Positions 24,159 to 33,294 of a stretch of 33,977 nt of DNA are shown here, piece by piece; position 1 is the stretch's first letter; each line of letters starts with the position of its first letter. The position numbers and the translations under genes were made by a program. The stretch is from contig JAAENP010000449.1 in the NCBI GenBank assembly GCA_024224155.1, positions 1-33,977 on the forward strand, read 5' to 3'. The stretch comes from a bacterium (GTDB lineage Bacteria; Acidobacteriota; Thermoanaerobaculia; Multivoradales; JAHEKO01). The notes below the pieces were generated by a model. The model saw only the letters and a program-made list of their open reading frames with translations. It searched no databases and was not told the origin of the DNA.

Positions 24159-26591
24159 CTACCGAATTTCGGGATACCGCGCCGGATCCGATCGGTGCAT
24201 CAGATCGTAGACCGCGTGGAAGATCTGCTCGCGATTGGGCTTGGTGAAGTAGTCGCCGTCGGAGCCGTAGGGCGGCCGGTGGGCCTTGGCGCTGATGGTG
24301 AGCGGCTCGGCGTCGAGCCACTGAAAGGCCTCCTGCTCCACCAGGACCTTCTGCATCATGTAGGCGGTGGCGCCGCCCGGGACGTCCTCGTCGACAAAGA
24401 CGACGCGACTGGTTTTCTTGATCGACTCGAGAATGCGGGATTCGCCGTCGAACGGAAGCAGAGTCTGGGCGTCCACAACCTCGACCTCGGTGCCGGTGGT
24501 CGCCAGAAGATCGGCCGCCGCGAGCGCAATCTTGCAGCAGGCGCCGTAGGTCACGAGGGTAACGTCCGAACCCTCGCGGAGGACCTGCGGAACACCCAAC
24601 GGCACCGTGAACTCACCGATATTGGTGGGCATCGGCTCCTTGGCCCGATAGGCGTTCAATACCTCGACCACCACCGCCGGATCGTCGGACTGGAGCAAGG
24701 TGTTGTACATGCCCGCGGCCTGGGTCATGTTGCGCGGCACACACAGGTACATGCCCCGAATCAGGTTGAGGATGCCGCCCATCTCTGAGCCCGAATGCCA
24801 GACGCCCTCGAGGCGGTGGCCGCGGGTTCGGACGATGACCGGAGCGCACTGCCCTCCCCGGGTGCGCCAGCGCAGCGTCGCCAGATCGTCCGACATGATC
24901 TGAAGCGCGTAGAGCAGATAGTCCAGGTACTGGATCTCGGCGATCGGCCGGATGCCGCGCATCGCGAGACCGATGGCCTGGCCGAGAATCGTGGCCTCAC
25001 GGATGCCCGTGTCCGACACTCGCAGCTCGCCGTACTTCTCTTGGAGGCCGGACATGCCCTGGTTGACGTCGCCGAGCCGACCGACATCCTCGCCGAAGGC
25101 GACGAGATTGGGATACCGCTCGAGAGCCCGGTCGAAGCAAGCGTTCAGAATCTCGAAGCCGCGCAGACTTTCCGGAGTGGCTTCTGAACCGGACTCGTAT
25201 TCCGCGGGGACCACGGCAACCGCCAGAGCCGATGCCGCCGTGCCGCTGTGGAGGTGGGAGCCATAGCGCTCGTGGTTGACGTCGAGCTGCTGCCGCTGCC
25301 ACTGGGCGAGCTCATCGCGCTCCGGGAGGCTTTCGTCACGAGTCAGGATCAGCAGCTCGGTCGCCGCCGACATCAACTCGCGCCGCAGAGCGTGAGGCAG
25401 GCGATCCAGCCGGCGCTCGACCGCGCGAATCTCGTCGGTGTGGCGCGAAGTGCTCGCCAGCTGTGAAACCCGGGAATCGAAAACCTGCCGGTCGATGTCG
25501 ACCGAGGCCCGGAACTTCTCCCAGGCGGAGCGCTGGCCTTCTCGAACCGAGCTCTTCTCTTCCTCCTCAACGTCCGCCAACTCCCGTTCATTGGCAAACC
25601 CTTGCGCGATCATCCACAGCCTCATCTGTCGGATGCAGTCGAACTCCTCTTCCCAGGCAAGTCGCTCGGCCGACTTATAGCGTTCGTGGCTGCCCGAGGT
25701 CGAATGTCCCTGAGGTTGGGTCATCTCGCGCACGTGCACGATCGCGGGCACATGCTCGAGTCGGACGATCTCGGCCGCATTGAGATACGTCTCACAGAGG
25801 CCGGGATAGTCCCAGCCCTTGGCCGTATAGATGTCGAAACCGGCGTCTTCGCCCGGTGCTCTCCGGAAGCCGCGCAACAGCTCGGTCATGTCGCCCTTGG
25901 TGACCTGGTACTCGTTGGGCACCGAGATGCCGTAGCCGTCGTCCCAGATCGAGAGCAGCATAGGCGCCCGGAGCACACCGGCGGCGTTGATCGACTCCCA
26001 GAAAATACCCTCGGCGCAGGTCGCGTTGCCAATCGTGCCGACAGCAATCTCGTTGCCGTTCTCGGAAAACCCCGAGAGATCCGAAAGACCCCCGAGCTGG
26101 CGGTAAAGACGTGAGGCGTAGGCCAGACCCACCAATCGCGGCATCTGTGATCCGGTCGGCGAAGCGTCGGCCGAGGACTGAACCTCTGCGAGGAGGTTCT
26201 TCCAACTACCTTGGCCATCCAGAAAGTGGGTCGCGAAATGGGCGGTCATCTGCCGGCCGGCGGAGCACGGCTCGCGCTCCGGATCCGGATCGGCATAGAG
26301 CTGAGCGAAGAGCTCCTCCACGCTCAGAAGACCCAGAGCCATGAGCAGGGTCTGATCGCGGTAGTAGCCGGAGCGGATATCTCCGGGCCGGCAGGCCCGC
26401 GCCAGCGCCAGCTGGGCCACCTCTTTGCCGTCACCGAAGATGCCGAACTTCGCCTTGCCGCTGAACACCTCGCGCCGCCCGAGCAAGCTCGCCTCCCGAC
26501 TCCGACAGGCAATGCGGTAGTCCCGAAGAATGCTCTCGTGGGTGAACTGAGCCGCCGAACCCTCCGGCCGGGTGTCGATGCCTTCGACCAC
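24159..26591 (-). CDS. Fused 2-oxoacid dehydrogenase E1 alpha/beta (thiamine diphosphate enzyme)
   Basis: This 810-residue protein joins an E1 alpha-like part (about 15-370) to an E1 beta-like part (about 485-800) through a charged helical linker. The alpha part has GNATCAEGIFWESINAAGV (188-206) and SIWDDGYGIS (214-223) at the thiamine diphosphate site; the beta part has VAFGEDVGRLGDV, DTGIREATILGQAIGLAMRG and FVDEDVPGGA. Fused E1 of this layout is known in Bacteroidetes and relatives and decarboxylates branched-chain or similar 2-oxoacids before transfer to a lipoyl E2. No E2 or E3 gene is in the window. The usual GDG/GDA Mg-binding motif reads GNA, an Asp-to-Asn change. The start is GTG 26591, ten bases after the lpxC stop, so both are likely co-transcribed. 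Confidence 0.87.
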   Translation of the reverse strand: MVEGIDTRPEGSAAQFTHESILRDYRIACRSREASLLGRREVFSGKAKFGIFGDGKEVAQLALARACRPGDIRSGYYRDQTLLMALGLLSVEELFAQLYADPDPEREPCSAGRQMTAHFATHFLDGQGSWKNLLAEVQSSADASPTGSQMPRLVGLAYASRLYRQLGGLSDLSGFSENGNEIAVGTIGNATCAEGIFWESINAAGVLRAPMLLSIWDDGYGISVPNEYQVTKGDMTELLRGFRRAPGEDAGFDIYTAKGWDYPGLCETYLNAAEIVRLEHVPAIVHVREMTQPQGHSTSGSHERYKSAERLAWEEEFDCIRQMRLWMIAQGFANERELADVEEEEKSSVREGQRSAWEKFRASVDIDRQVFDSRVSQLASTSRHTDEIRAVERRLDRLPHALRRELMSAATELLILTRDESLPERDELAQWQRQQLDVNHERYGSHLHSGTAASALAVAVVPAEYESGSEATPESLRGFEILNACFDRALERYPNLVAFGEDVGRLGDVNQGMSGLQEKYGELRVSDTGIREATILGQAIGLAMRGIRPIAEIQYLDYLLYALQIMSDDLATLRWRTRGGQCAPVIVRTRGHRLEGVWHSGSEMGGILNLIRGMYLCVPRNMTQAAGMYNTLLQSDDPAVVVEVLNAYRAKEPMPTNIGEFTVPLGVPQVLREGSDVTLVTYGACCKIALAAADLLATTGTEVEVVDAQTLLPFDGESRILESIKKTSRVVFVDEDVPGGATAYMMQKVLVEQEAFQWLDAEPLTISAKAHRPPYGSDGDYFTKPNREQIFHAVYDLMHRSDPARYPEIR

Positions 26592-26600
26592 GCCAGCAGC

Positions 26601-27899
26601 CTATGCGTTGTCTTCCAGGATCTTGCGCAGGATCGCGATGTTGTCGCGATGCCCGGTCAGGCTGGCGGTGACCTTGCCTCGCATCGGGTAGCCGAGCAGG
26701 TAGAGATCGCCGATCACGTCCAGGATCTTGTGGCGTACGAACTCGTCCGGGAATCGCAGGTCGGTGTTGATGATGTCGTCCTCGCCGACCAGGATGCAGT
26801 TGTCCAGACGGCCGCCGGTGCCGAGCCCCAATTCGTTCATCATGTCGAGGTCCTTGACGAAGCCGAAGGTTCGCGCCGGAGCGATCTCACCGACGTAGCT
26901 CGCCGGCTTCAACGGACCGTACTGGTAGCTCTGTCGACCAACCGGCGGAGGATAGTCGAGTAGGTAGGATACCCCGAACTCGTCCGCGGGCTCGAGCGTC
27001 AGGCTCTGCTCGCCGCTGCCGCTCACCCGATACTCACGATCGATGACGATCTCCTTGCGCGGCTCATCCTGATCGACGACGCCCACTTCGGCCAGGGTCT
27101 TGCAGAACTCGATGGCCGAGCCGTCGAGCACCGGAAGCTCACCATGCACCTTGACCAAGGCGTTGGTCACGCCGTAGGCATGGCACGCCGAAAGAAAGTG
27201 CTCGACCGTCTTGATGCCGACGCCTTCGGTCTCCAGCGTGGTTGCGTAGGAAGTCTCGGCGACAACGCCGACAAAGCCCGGAACGTGCGTATTCGTCGGT
27301 AGCGTCAGGAAGTGAATGCCGGAGTTCGGGGGCAACGGCTGAATCACCATCCCGGTCCGGAAGCCGGAATGCAAGCCCAGGCCGTAGAGGACGGTGCTCT
27401 GGGCGATGGTTCTCTGGGGAATCTCCGAAGCCCGGAGTAAGGGTACCTCCGGTGGTTTGAACTCGAAATCGGCGGCAAGCCGATCTTCCGACCGGACCGC
27501 CGACGCCAGGAGCGGCCCGCTAACGGACACATTGCGGCGGTAGGCGATGGCGCCTTGGACGCTATCTACCGCCTGGCTGTAGGAGAGCGGCTTCTCGACG
27601 TAGTCGAAGGCCCCCATCTTGAGCGCCTTGACCGCCGTCGAGGTCGTGCCGTGTCCCGACATCATGATCACCGCCGCCGTCGGGTCACTCTCACGCAGCG
27701 CCTGCAGCGTTTCCAGCCCATCCCGGTCCGGGAGCCAAATGTCGAGGAAGACGACGTCGGGCTTCCGGTCCCGATAGAGCTCGAGCGCCTCTTCTCCGCT
27801 CTCGGTGCAAAGGGTGTCGAAGCCCTCGTCCGAAAGCACCCCGGACAGGGCCGTGAGGATGCCCGGCTCGTCGTCGACGATGAGTACTAGCTCGCTCAT
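26601..27899 (-). CDS. lpxC: Response-regulator receiver domain fused to LpxC deacetylase
   Basis: This 432-residue protein starts at ATG 27899 (TTGAGGG upstream). Residues 1-120 form an NtrC-type receiver: acidic DDE at 9-11, phosphoacceptor Asp53 in VVFLDIWLP, Ser81 in MMSGHG and Lys103 in VEKPL, all present. After a linker (about 121-160), residues 161-432 are LpxC, which removes acetate from UDP-3-O-acyl-GlcNAc, the committed step of lipid A synthesis. LpxC signatures are GLGLHSG, TVEHFLSA (Glu233, His234), LPVLDGSA, and HKILDVIGD (His390, Asp394) with catalytic His417 in LTGHRDN. The His-Asp and Asp-His spacings (4 and 23) equal those of E. coli LpxC. Catalysis is expected to be intact. 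The receiver suggests phosphorelay control; no histidine kinase is in the window. Confidence 0.92.
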   Translation of the reverse strand: MSELVLIVDDEPGILTALSGVLSDEGFDTLCTESGEEALELYRDRKPDVVFLDIWLPDRDGLETLQALRESDPTAAVIMMSGHGTTSTAVKALKMGAFDYVEKPLSYSQAVDSVQGAIAYRRNVSVSGPLLASAVRSEDRLAADFEFKPPEVPLLRASEIPQRTIAQSTVLYGLGLHSGFRTGMVIQPLPPNSGIHFLTLPTNTHVPGFVGVVAETSYATTLETEGVGIKTVEHFLSACHAYGVTNALVKVHGELPVLDGSAIEFCKTLAEVGVVDQDEPRKEIVIDREYRVSGSGEQSLTLEPADEFGVSYLLDYPPPVGRQSYQYGPLKPASYVGEIAPARTFGFVKDLDMMNELGLGTGGRLDNCILVGEDDIINTDLRFPDEFVRHKILDVIGDLYLLGYPMRGKVTASLTGHRDNIAILRKILEDNA

Positions 27900-27959: not shown

Positions 27960-29324
27960 GTGCCGGTAATCATCCTACCGACGCCTCTCACGAGTCGTGC
28001 TGCGGGTCGAGATCGCATCGCAGCGACCGGCTCGACCGTCGGTGAATGCCTGCTGGCCCTGGAGCGCGACTACCCGGGCCTCAAGGGCTGGGTCCTGGAC
28101 GACCGCGGCCGCATTCGCCGGCACGTCAACGTGTTCGTGGGCGACACCAAGGCGACTCTGGATCGAACGTTGGCGGCCGAAGAGGAGATCTACGTAATTC
28201 AGGCTATTTCCGGAGGGGGTGCCGATCTGGAAGAAACCGGTGAAGTTCTGGTCGGAACCAAGAAGGGGCTGATTGTCCTGCGCGGTCCCCGCGGGCGCGG
28301 CATGGAGACCGTCAGCCGCCAGTTCCCCGGCCAGGTGGTCGAATACGCGACGCGCGATCCGAGAACCGGTCTCTACTACGCCTCGGTTACGCACGGCCAG
28401 TTCGGTCCCCATGTCTACCTCGCCGAGGATCCCGTCGGAGAGTGGGAGCAGGCGGACGGACCGGTATTCCCGGAAGGCACCGACGCGTCGGTGAACCGGG
28501 TCTGGGTGATCAAGCCGGGCGTCGAGGAGGGCGTGCTATGGGCGGGCGTGGCGCCGGCCGCGCTTTTCAAGAGCGAGGACTCCGGGCGCACTTGGGAGCT
28601 CAACCGGGGTCTCTGGGATCACCCGACACGACCCGACTGGGAAGGCGGCCTCGGCGGACTCTGCCTCCATTCGATTTGCCAGTGGCCCGACGACGCGCAG
28701 CGGCTCACGCTGGCGATCTCGGCCGTCGGCGTTTGGCAGACCGAAGACGGCGGCGAAAGCTGGTCACGATACTCGGAGGGCCTTGTCCCCCGCTACCTTC
28801 CCGAGGAAGCTCGGGTCGACACGCTCATGCACTGCGTTCACAAGCTCGAGCAGTCGCCCGTCGAGCCCGACACCTTCTACATGCAGTTTCACGGCGGTGT
28901 CTATCGCTCCGATGACGCCGGGCACAGCTGGCAGGACATTGCTGGGCTCCAAGCCCAGGGAAACGGCCGCGGCCTCCCCGCGGATTTCGGCTTTCCGATT
29001 GTGGTCGACCCCAGAGACCCGAACCGTGCCTACGTGATTCCGCTGGTAGCCGACGTCGACAGGGTCACCCCGGAGGGCGGAGTCCGCGTTTTCGAGACCC
29101 GCGACCGCGGCGCCAGCTGGCAGCCGAAGACCCAGGGCCTGCCGCAGCAAGACGCCTACCTGACCGTTCTCCGCCAAGCCTTTTGTCATGACGGCGGCGA
29201 CCCGCTGGGCCTGTACTTCGGAGCCGAGTCCGGCACCGTCTTCGGATCGCGCGACGGCGGCGAGACCCGGTCCGCGGTCGCCGAGAATCTGCCACCGATC
29301 GGCTCGGTTCGAGCGTCCCAGTAA
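27960..29324 (+). CDS. MoaD/ThiS-like ubiquitin fold fused to an Asp-box (BNR) beta-propeller
   Basis: This 454-residue protein begins at GTG 27960. Residues 1-87 look like a MoaD/ThiS-family sulfur carrier: a GSTVGECLLALERDYPGL segment, RRHVNVFVGDT, then EEIYVIQAISGGG, in which the carrier's normally terminal Gly-Gly is buried at 85-87. The chain continues in frame into EVLVGTKKGLIVL and a propeller with five Asp boxes: SEDSGRTW (205), TEDGGESW (261), SDDAGHSW (317), TRDRGASW (380) and SRDGGETR (430). Asp-box propellers include sialidases and many non-enzymatic proteins. No signal peptide is seen, so it is probably cytoplasmic. Separate adjacent genes for the two domains occur in other bacteria; here they are fused. 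Next gene follows after six bases. Confidence 0.82.
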   Translation: MPVIILPTPLTSRAAGRDRIAATGSTVGECLLALERDYPGLKGWVLDDRGRIRRHVNVFVGDTKATLDRTLAAEEEIYVIQAISGGGADLEETGEVLVGTKKGLIVLRGPRGRGMETVSRQFPGQVVEYATRDPRTGLYYASVTHGQFGPHVYLAEDPVGEWEQADGPVFPEGTDASVNRVWVIKPGVEEGVLWAGVAPAALFKSEDSGRTWELNRGLWDHPTRPDWEGGLGGLCLHSICQWPDDAQRLTLAISAVGVWQTEDGGESWSRYSEGLVPRYLPEEARVDTLMHCVHKLEQSPVEPDTFYMQFHGGVYRSDDAGHSWQDIAGLQAQGNGRGLPADFGFPIVVDPRDPNRAYVIPLVADVDRVTPEGGVRVFETRDRGASWQPKTQGLPQQDAYLTVLRQAFCHDGGDPLGLYFGAESGTVFGSRDGGETRSAVAENLPPIGSVRASQ

Positions 29325-32601: not shown

Positions 32602-33294
32602 TCAGGCCAAGGCCCGGGCCAAACTGTGCTCGAGGTACTCGTGAAGCCGCTCGGCCGCCTCGTTGTCGAGTCGCGTAAACGCGATGCCCAACCCGTGCAC
32701 CCCACCACGACCGGCTTCCGCGTGGCGCACGACCCTGCCGCTCACCCGGATCGCGCCGGTTCTCTCCGGCAAGCTCAACTCGAGATCGACTTCGCTGCCC
32801 ACCGGAATCCGGTTCTTCGTCCGGATCAGCACGCCCGCCTCGGAGAGGTTCTCGGTCTGTGCCAGTCGATCAACCCCGGCTTCTCCGACCTTCACCTGCA
32901 TCCTCACCATCAGCCGCTTCGGCCGCTCGGGCCAGCTCTGGAGGTGGGCCGCGACCCGCGCTCGAAAGCTGGCTGGCTCGCCGCAGCTGATCACCGGAGC
33001 GCGATCACCGACGGACTCGAGCAATTCGGTGAGCGCCGCCTCGTCGCTCACGATCACGACATCGGGATCACCGGAGGCCTTTTCTCGAACCTCGGCGATG
33101 AACTCGGCGATCGAAGCGTCCGCCAGCGGATGCTCCACGAGCACCAACTCGAGCGGGAAGGTGGCGATCAGCGACAGGGCGTCTTGGGGATCCCGAACAA
33201 CCTGGACCTCAACCGCCGATTCGTTGAACAGATCTTCGAGCTGTTCCAGAATCTTGCCTTCGCCGCCTACGGCGATGATCTTTTGCCTTTCCAC
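32602..33294 (-). CDS. Pseudo-receiver plus PilZ domain protein (c-di-GMP effector)
   Basis: This 230-residue protein starts at GTG 33294. Residues 1-118 fold like a response-regulator receiver (IIAVGGEGKILEQLEDLF...), but the phosphoacceptor position reads Glu54 (LVLVEHPLAD) and the acidic pair near the start is missing, so it is probably not phosphorylated. Residues about 122-225 are a PilZ domain: RLMVR (127-131, the RxxxR motif) and NLSEAG (149-154, the [D/N]xSxxG motif) are both intact, so c-di-GMP binding is likely. Such proteins often act in motility, adhesion or regulated secretion. It is upstream of the M20 peptidase in the same unit. Confidence 0.82.
   Translation of the reverse strand: MERQKIIAVGGEGKILEQLEDLFNESAVEVQVVRDPQDALSLIATFPLELVLVEHPLADASIAEFIAEVREKASGDPDVVIVSDEAALTELLESVGDRAPVISCGEPASFRARVAAHLQSWPERPKRLMVRMQVKVGEAGVDRLAQTENLSEAGVLIRTKNRIPVGSEVDLELSLPERTGAIRVSGRVVRHAEAGRGGVHGLGIAFTRLDNEAAERLHEYLEHSLARALA

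Follow-up and report, generated by a model that had tools for sequence, protein, structure and literature searches.

Receiver and LpxC domains on one chain

The window, that is, the whole stretch of 33,977 nucleotides analyzed here, encodes on its minus strand a protein in which a response-regulator receiver (REC) is followed by the deacetylase LpxC. The features discussed below are the following:

26601..27899, minus strand: REC-LpxC fusion gene (ATG at 27899, stop codon 26601-26603, 432 aa; translation and Pfam)
27561..27887, minus strand: receiver assigned to the NtrX type, aa 5-113 (Pfam PF00072, NCBIfam scores, receiver tree)
27741-27743, minus strand: codon of the phospho-acceptor Asp53
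27417..27560, minus strand: inter-domain linker, aa 114-161 (AlphaFold2 model)
26616..27416, minus strand: LpxC deacetylase domain, aa 162-428 (Pfam PF03331, matches to PDB LpxC structures)
24159..26591, minus strand: fused E1 alpha/beta 2-oxoacid dehydrogenase, co-directional and 9 bp downstream of the REC-LpxC gene

Translation of the frame 27899..26601 gave one uninterrupted chain of 432 residues, with a Response_reg match at residues 5-113 (Pfam, E = 5.6e-30) and an LpxC match at residues 162-428 that covers positions 1-267 of the 268-position profile (E = 4.5e-80). The full-length LpxC profile PF03331 was passed with 269 bits against a cut-off of 27 and the NCBIfam LpxC equivalog TIGR00325 with 229 bits against 187, and LpxC structures in the PDB match the domain at E of about 1e-50. 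The original prediction that the receiver residues and the catalytic and zinc residues of LpxC are all intact on this chain was borne out: D9, D10, E11, D53, S81 and K103, together with E233, H234, H390, D394 and H417, are present at the predicted positions, with Glu233 and His417 as catalytic residues and His234, His390 and Asp394 as zinc ligands of an LpxC domain whose C-terminal tail is short. The genome (5.7 Mb, 96.6% complete) has no PF03331 match besides REC-LpxC and also encodes LpxB; lipid A synthesis in the source organism therefore presumably rests on this protein.

The downstream gene carries the E1 alpha and beta parts of the 2-oxoacid dehydrogenase on one 810-aa chain. The order REC-LpxC then dehydrogenase is repeated in one genome of the same genus (G001, locus L188), and the dehydrogenase gene is probably a local neighbor outside the REC-LpxC system. 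Elsewhere in the window, the product of a divergent gene at 27960-29324 has a ThiS-like domain (ubiquitin fold) at its N-terminus and, on the same chain, weak matches to BNR/sortilin-like repeats. The PilZ-domain protein encoded at 32602-33294 has an N-terminal part of ~120 residues that looks receiver-like by eye, with no Pfam receiver match, and is possibly a degenerate receiver.

A conserved family with one likely origin

A search for receiver and LpxC domains on one chain, as the original prediction had proposed, revealed that the fusion occurs repeatedly in its own order of Acidobacteriota and turns up in several other phyla as well. REC-LpxC aligns end to end in 15 genomes that represent several of the order's families, and 36 of the 60 order genomes (its own and 59 others) encode an LpxC frame that exceeds the length of LpxC by itself; the frames that were inspected are REC-LpxC and the remainder of the 36 were called by frame length. 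Ordinary standalone LpxC is found in 14 order genomes, all of families f3 and f8. Among 199 Acidobacteriota genomes sampled across the phylum, full-length matches to the fusion occur in its own order and in family f38 (G152 and G194). The nearest named records are likewise from Acidobacteriota, mostly labeled Thermoanaerobaculia, Thermoanaerobaculales or Holophagae, and fusion records from outside this phylum are labeled Deltaproteobacteria, Syntrophobacterales, Desulfopila, Desulfoprunum and Nitrospirae.

Across 34 aligned fusions from several phyla, D9, D10, D53, S81 and K103 of the receiver and E233, H234, H390, K391, D394, D398 and H417 of LpxC are invariant (34/34), at a mean column identity of 63%. 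This is the conservation pattern of a receiver that is phosphorylated and an enzyme that is active, and the receiver has therefore, by this measure, been kept in working order.

In a tree of 95 LpxC domains (quick method, unrooted), a branch with SH-aLRT support of 99 has all 40 fused domains on the same side, for which the simplest reading is that the fused LpxC lineage arose once and then spread vertically or horizontally; separate fusion events in each phylum are unsupported by this topology. The receivers alone did not resolve a single fusion clade, and enforcing one was not rejected (AU p 0.376). Standalone LpxCs of order-mates group among those of other Acidobacteriota, so that the native lpxC appears to have been displaced in the fusion genomes. 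Two contigs with a standalone LpxC in genomes of fusion-bearing families (L016 on G005:C34 and L014 on G029:C740) are likely contamination or relict copies. A divergent REC-LpxC subclade from Nitrospirae, Desulfopila and Desulfoprunum (L045, L046 and L055) shares its genomes with a second, standalone LpxC and may have a different role.

The receiver is of the NtrX type

The original prediction regarded the receiver as a two-component input. It is indeed intact and, by its conservation, phosphorylatable, but it is NtrX-type rather than generic. The best response-regulator equivalog for it is NtrX, at 102.6 bits, a score well under the whole-protein cut-off, as only the receiver part matches. 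In the receiver tree, the fusions, true NtrX and a third group, represented in the source genome by a regulator on contig C356, fall together (bootstrap/SH-aLRT 88/94), to the exclusion of most of the other sigma-54 regulators in this genome. Comparison of receiver consensus sequences covered helix alpha-1, the beta3-alpha3 loop and alpha-4; the kinase-contact helix alpha-1 of the fusions and the loop that follows their phospho-accepting Asp (DIWLPDRDGL) resemble those of NtrX, unlike those of the C356-type paralog. On these grounds we assign the receiver of REC-LpxC to the NtrX type.

The C356 regulator (L177:6894-8342, G000:C356) is an orphan NtrX-like sigma-54 response regulator, encoded between nusA/infB and pyrE as judged by sequence inspection. 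It shares 47-52% identity with true NtrX and is kept in the source genome and in all 11 order-mates tested. C356-type regulators occur in fusion and standalone genomes alike, which identifies them, by gene content, as a separate, vertically inherited paralog of NtrX. We considered whether this regulator is the missing NtrX and rejected the idea, as order-mates with NtrX have an ortholog of C356 as well, and the two regulators group in distinct clades. Locus L054 was likewise rejected as a split fusion: the small receiver encoded beside its lpxC is a stand-alone, unrelated REC that branches elsewhere in the receiver tree.

Intermediates link NtrX to REC-LpxC

The protein in the window has, according to Pfam, neither the sigma-54 AAA+ domain with its GAFTGA and Walker motifs nor a Fis-type C-terminal helix-turn-helix (HTH), in place of which it carries LpxC. 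A longer form, REC-AAA-LpxC, was found in Desulfomonile, Nitrospirae and Nitrospinaceae:

L049:6549-8840: REC, decayed sigma-54 AAA+, LpxC
L051:6711-8831: REC, decayed sigma-54 AAA+, LpxC
L052:6813-8834: REC, decayed sigma-54 AAA+, LpxC
L053:6681-8816: REC, decayed sigma-54 AAA+, LpxC

In these four proteins, an NtrX-type receiver precedes an AAA+ region that is still recognizable as that of a sigma-54 activator, with Walker A partly kept and the GAFTGA loop and the Walker B acid lost, and LpxC sits where the Fis-type DNA-binding domain would be. Their domain order identifies them as NtrX proteins whose DNA-binding domain gave way to LpxC. The short form would thus descend from an NtrX-type regulator in which LpxC took the place of the C-terminal DNA-binding domain, after which the AAA+ domain decayed and disappeared.

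NtrY as the candidate kinase

Standalone order-mates share the arrangement smpB-lpxC-DUF4390-ntrY-ntrX-(yqeY)-selB (L178, L179 and L180; L181 as far as ntrX). The corresponding locus of fusion genomes reads smpB-DUF4390-ntrY-yqeY-selB (L144, L145, L149, L150, L155 and L156; L154 as far as yqeY), with gaps of tens of bases at the former ntrX site, and in L143, also from a fusion genome, selB directly follows ntrY. From this comparison, smpB-lpxC-DUF4390-ntrY-ntrX-yqeY-selB is reconstructed as the ancestral order. Similar lpxC-DUF4390-ntrY-ntrX clusters are present in one record each from Rokubacteria and Desulfobacterales (cluster coordinates L178:3544-8861, L180:5490-13551, L106:7992-13188 for Rokubacteria and L054:3612-8977 for Desulfobacterales). 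That this cluster is conserved in several phyla points to a widespread tie between NtrYX and the control of lipid A, with DUF4390 as a member of the same pathway.

NtrX orthologs, defined by 63% identity or more to NtrX of family f8, were detected in all 14 standalone genomes versus 3 of the 36 fusion genomes with an LpxC frame of sufficient length for the call (Fisher p 7e-10, uncorrected for shared ancestry). In two f8 genomes (L152 and L153), NtrX lies on another contig. The three exceptions, all of family f6 (G030, G037 and G043), retain an NtrX ortholog apart from ntrY, which marks the replacement of NtrX by the fusion as incomplete in some genomes. NtrY is retained in 55 of 59 relatives, in a single copy each, with its phospho-accepting motif AHEIKNP intact. 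The NtrY of the source genome (G000:C63:360-2531) is full-length, with NtrY_N, HAMP, PAS, HisKA and HATPase domains; its contig ends just beyond the gene, and its orphan status was read from the genus-mates G001 and G002.

Further evidence comes from other genomes. In two deltaproteobacterial records (L042 and L043), ntrY lies immediately upstream of REC-lpxC, at the position of ntrX, an arrangement not seen in the source genome or its order. G064 and G069, which have a second, standalone LpxC, retain an adjacent ntrY-ntrX pair, and fusion genomes with a sole LpxC, including Desulfomonile and Nitrospinaceae, have NtrY without NtrX nearby. Gene order, the loss of ntrX with ntrY kept, and these three observations make it most likely that the fusion took over the place of NtrX as the partner of NtrY. 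The original prediction saw no kinase nearby and expected an orphan kinase elsewhere; the former is right for the window, but a candidate kinase can be given a name, as NtrY has lost ntrX and adjoins the fusion in L042 and L043.

C-terminal tail and linker

In 44 fusion frames, some from overlapping loci, 12-22 residues follow the catalytic His, whereas the tail of 78 standalone LpxC frames has a median length of 43 aa and falls below 31 in only five. The fusions have therefore, on this comparison, gained a receiver and lost the long C-terminal tail. In E. coli, FtsH degrades LpxC by way of the enzyme's C-terminus, where the tail carries a degron; this regulation was reportedly treated by Fuhrer in 2006, a work cited in PMC3333781.

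The span between the REC and LpxC HMM matches measures 21-50 aa in the 44 fusion frames. An AlphaFold2 model of REC-LpxC (mean pLDDT 86, pTM 0.74) has two well-formed domains connected by a linker composed of the final part of REC's last helix, a disordered segment (aa 126-143, pLDDT <50) and a short helix. With its disordered linker, the model does not establish an inter-domain contact; structure prediction, proposed as a check on whether the receiver touches the LpxC active site, thus delivered the two domains but, at a pTM of 0.74, left their contacts undecided.

Proposed mechanism and alternative explanations

We consider it likely, though far from assured, that REC-LpxC is an NtrX-derived response regulator with LpxC as its output, driven by NtrY and setting deacetylase activity in cis. 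NtrY, a membrane kinase, would sense a signal and phosphorylate Asp53 of REC-LpxC, and the receiver, on a flexible linker of about 40 residues, would then alter LpxC output in cis. In CheB, the N-terminal receiver restrains the linked C-terminal enzyme until it is phosphorylated, and a sign of this kind is the most likely one here, with the unphosphorylated receiver restraining LpxC and phosphorylation relieving the restraint; the opposite sign is possible. The kinase would thus probably control LpxC directly and not via gene expression. Of the idea that a phosphorylatable domain controls LpxC in cis, two-component input stands as the best reading, and the type of receiver and the kinase have been revised. 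The evolutionary case for REC-LpxC, built on comparative genomics, is strong, and we think it somewhat more probable than the reverse that such proteins form a response regulator class with the committed enzyme of lipid A synthesis as output, kinase-controlled in cis, with the DNA-binding half of NtrX replaced, present in multiple phyla and often the sole LpxC. Caution is due in choosing the best explanation because the orphan NtrX-like paralog (G000:C356) could also accept phosphate from NtrY.

The most serious competitor, which we rate as improbable but well worth weighing, is that the receiver governs how much LpxC there is or where it sits, and not how fast it turns over substrate: phosphorylation would decide whether a protease can reach it or a membrane partner recruits it, and the receiver would so replace the lost tail. 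The missing tail makes a substitute level control plausible, the modeled linker is flexible and the FtsH precedent in E. coli is apt; against this, no degron or adaptor was found, the tail is not a degron in every LpxC, and a few standalone LpxCs are also short-tailed. Information might also flow in reverse, with the LpxC part sensing UDP-acyl-GlcNAc and the receiver serving as a phosphate sink or feedback on NtrY, which would mainly drive the C356 regulator. Receivers act as phosphate sinks in other systems, and the retention of the C356 regulator in all genomes tested, together with its identity to NtrX, favors this reading. The same regulator is, however, a separate vertical paralog that also accompanies NtrX in standalone genomes, and it is the fusion that matches NtrX in alpha-1 and loop residues, from which C356 departs; we therefore hold reverse flow to be distinctly unlikely.

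That the receiver has no present role in signaling and survives as a relic, structural or evolutionary, is very improbable, as constancy of its five key residues in 34 fusions at 63% mean column identity would not be expected of a relic. Least credible is an assembly or frameshift artefact that joined two genes. The original prediction had held that separate genes in relatives would imply a sequence error, and neighboring genomes do carry lpxC and, apart from it, ntrY and ntrX; this arrangement turns out to be the ancestral order and not a sign of error. Occurrences of the same fusion in dozens of independent assemblies, across the order and other phyla, refute the artefact and mark the fusion as a real derived form. 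Control of LpxC by NtrY through the receiver in cis thus remains our preferred reading.

Significance and comparison with known systems

LpxC, which commits the cell to lipid A, is essential in many Gram-negative bacteria and serves there as a target for antibiotics. To our knowledge, its control is mainly by proteolysis; here, control appears to be built into the protein via a two-component receiver for which a candidate kinase, NtrY, can be named. The fusion would shift the NtrYX-lpxC link from transcription to the enzyme itself and would turn a transcription factor into an enzyme, with the NtrX receiver kept, the AAA+ domain decayed and the DNA-binding domain swapped for an enzyme that is encoded in the same cluster in other genomes. 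It makes testable the setting of lipid A synthesis by kinase signaling without transcription, and for annotation, REC-LpxC proteins would count as both LpxC and response regulators.

Links of this kind between NtrYX and lpxC have precedents. In Rhodobacter sphaeroides, lpxC mRNA rises 8.8-fold when NtrYX is lost, an effect that the authors consider indirect (PMC7240162). The regulator DVU2934 of Desulfovibrio vulgaris, which may or may not be an NtrX, has lpxC as its single DNA target, and in S. fumaroxidans lpxC lies directly upstream of the operon of the DVU2934 ortholog (PMC3333781). No account of a receiver-LpxC protein was found in the open literature, most subscription papers lying outside the search, and none of the NCBIfam models matched spans the combination. 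LpxC as a response-regulator output thus appears undescribed, whereas enzymatic response regulators themselves are known.

Among known systems, NtrX shares with the window protein its receiver sequence and place in the receiver tree; NtrY is kept in fusion genomes, lpxC, ntrY and ntrX stood together in the ancestral cluster, and the intermediates hold a decayed NtrX AAA+ domain. REC-LpxC differs in lacking the sigma-54 AAA+ and Fis-type DNA-binding domains and in having an enzyme as output. Compared with ordinary LpxC (PF03331, TIGR00325), it has the full-length domain with all catalytic and zinc residues, but adds an N-terminal receiver and linker, lacks the long tail and falls in its own clade. 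LpxC-FabZ is likewise an LpxC fused to another domain on one chain, although the partner there is a second metabolic enzyme; its model NF009667 matches the window protein over the LpxC part only (187.7 bits versus a cut-off of 465). The closest mechanistic precedent is CheB, which, like other enzymatic response regulators, shares the architecture of N-terminal receiver, linker and C-terminal enzyme, with receiver control of catalysis as the working model for REC-LpxC; the enzyme domains are unrelated, and the output here is a lipid A biosynthetic enzyme rather than a signaling enzyme.
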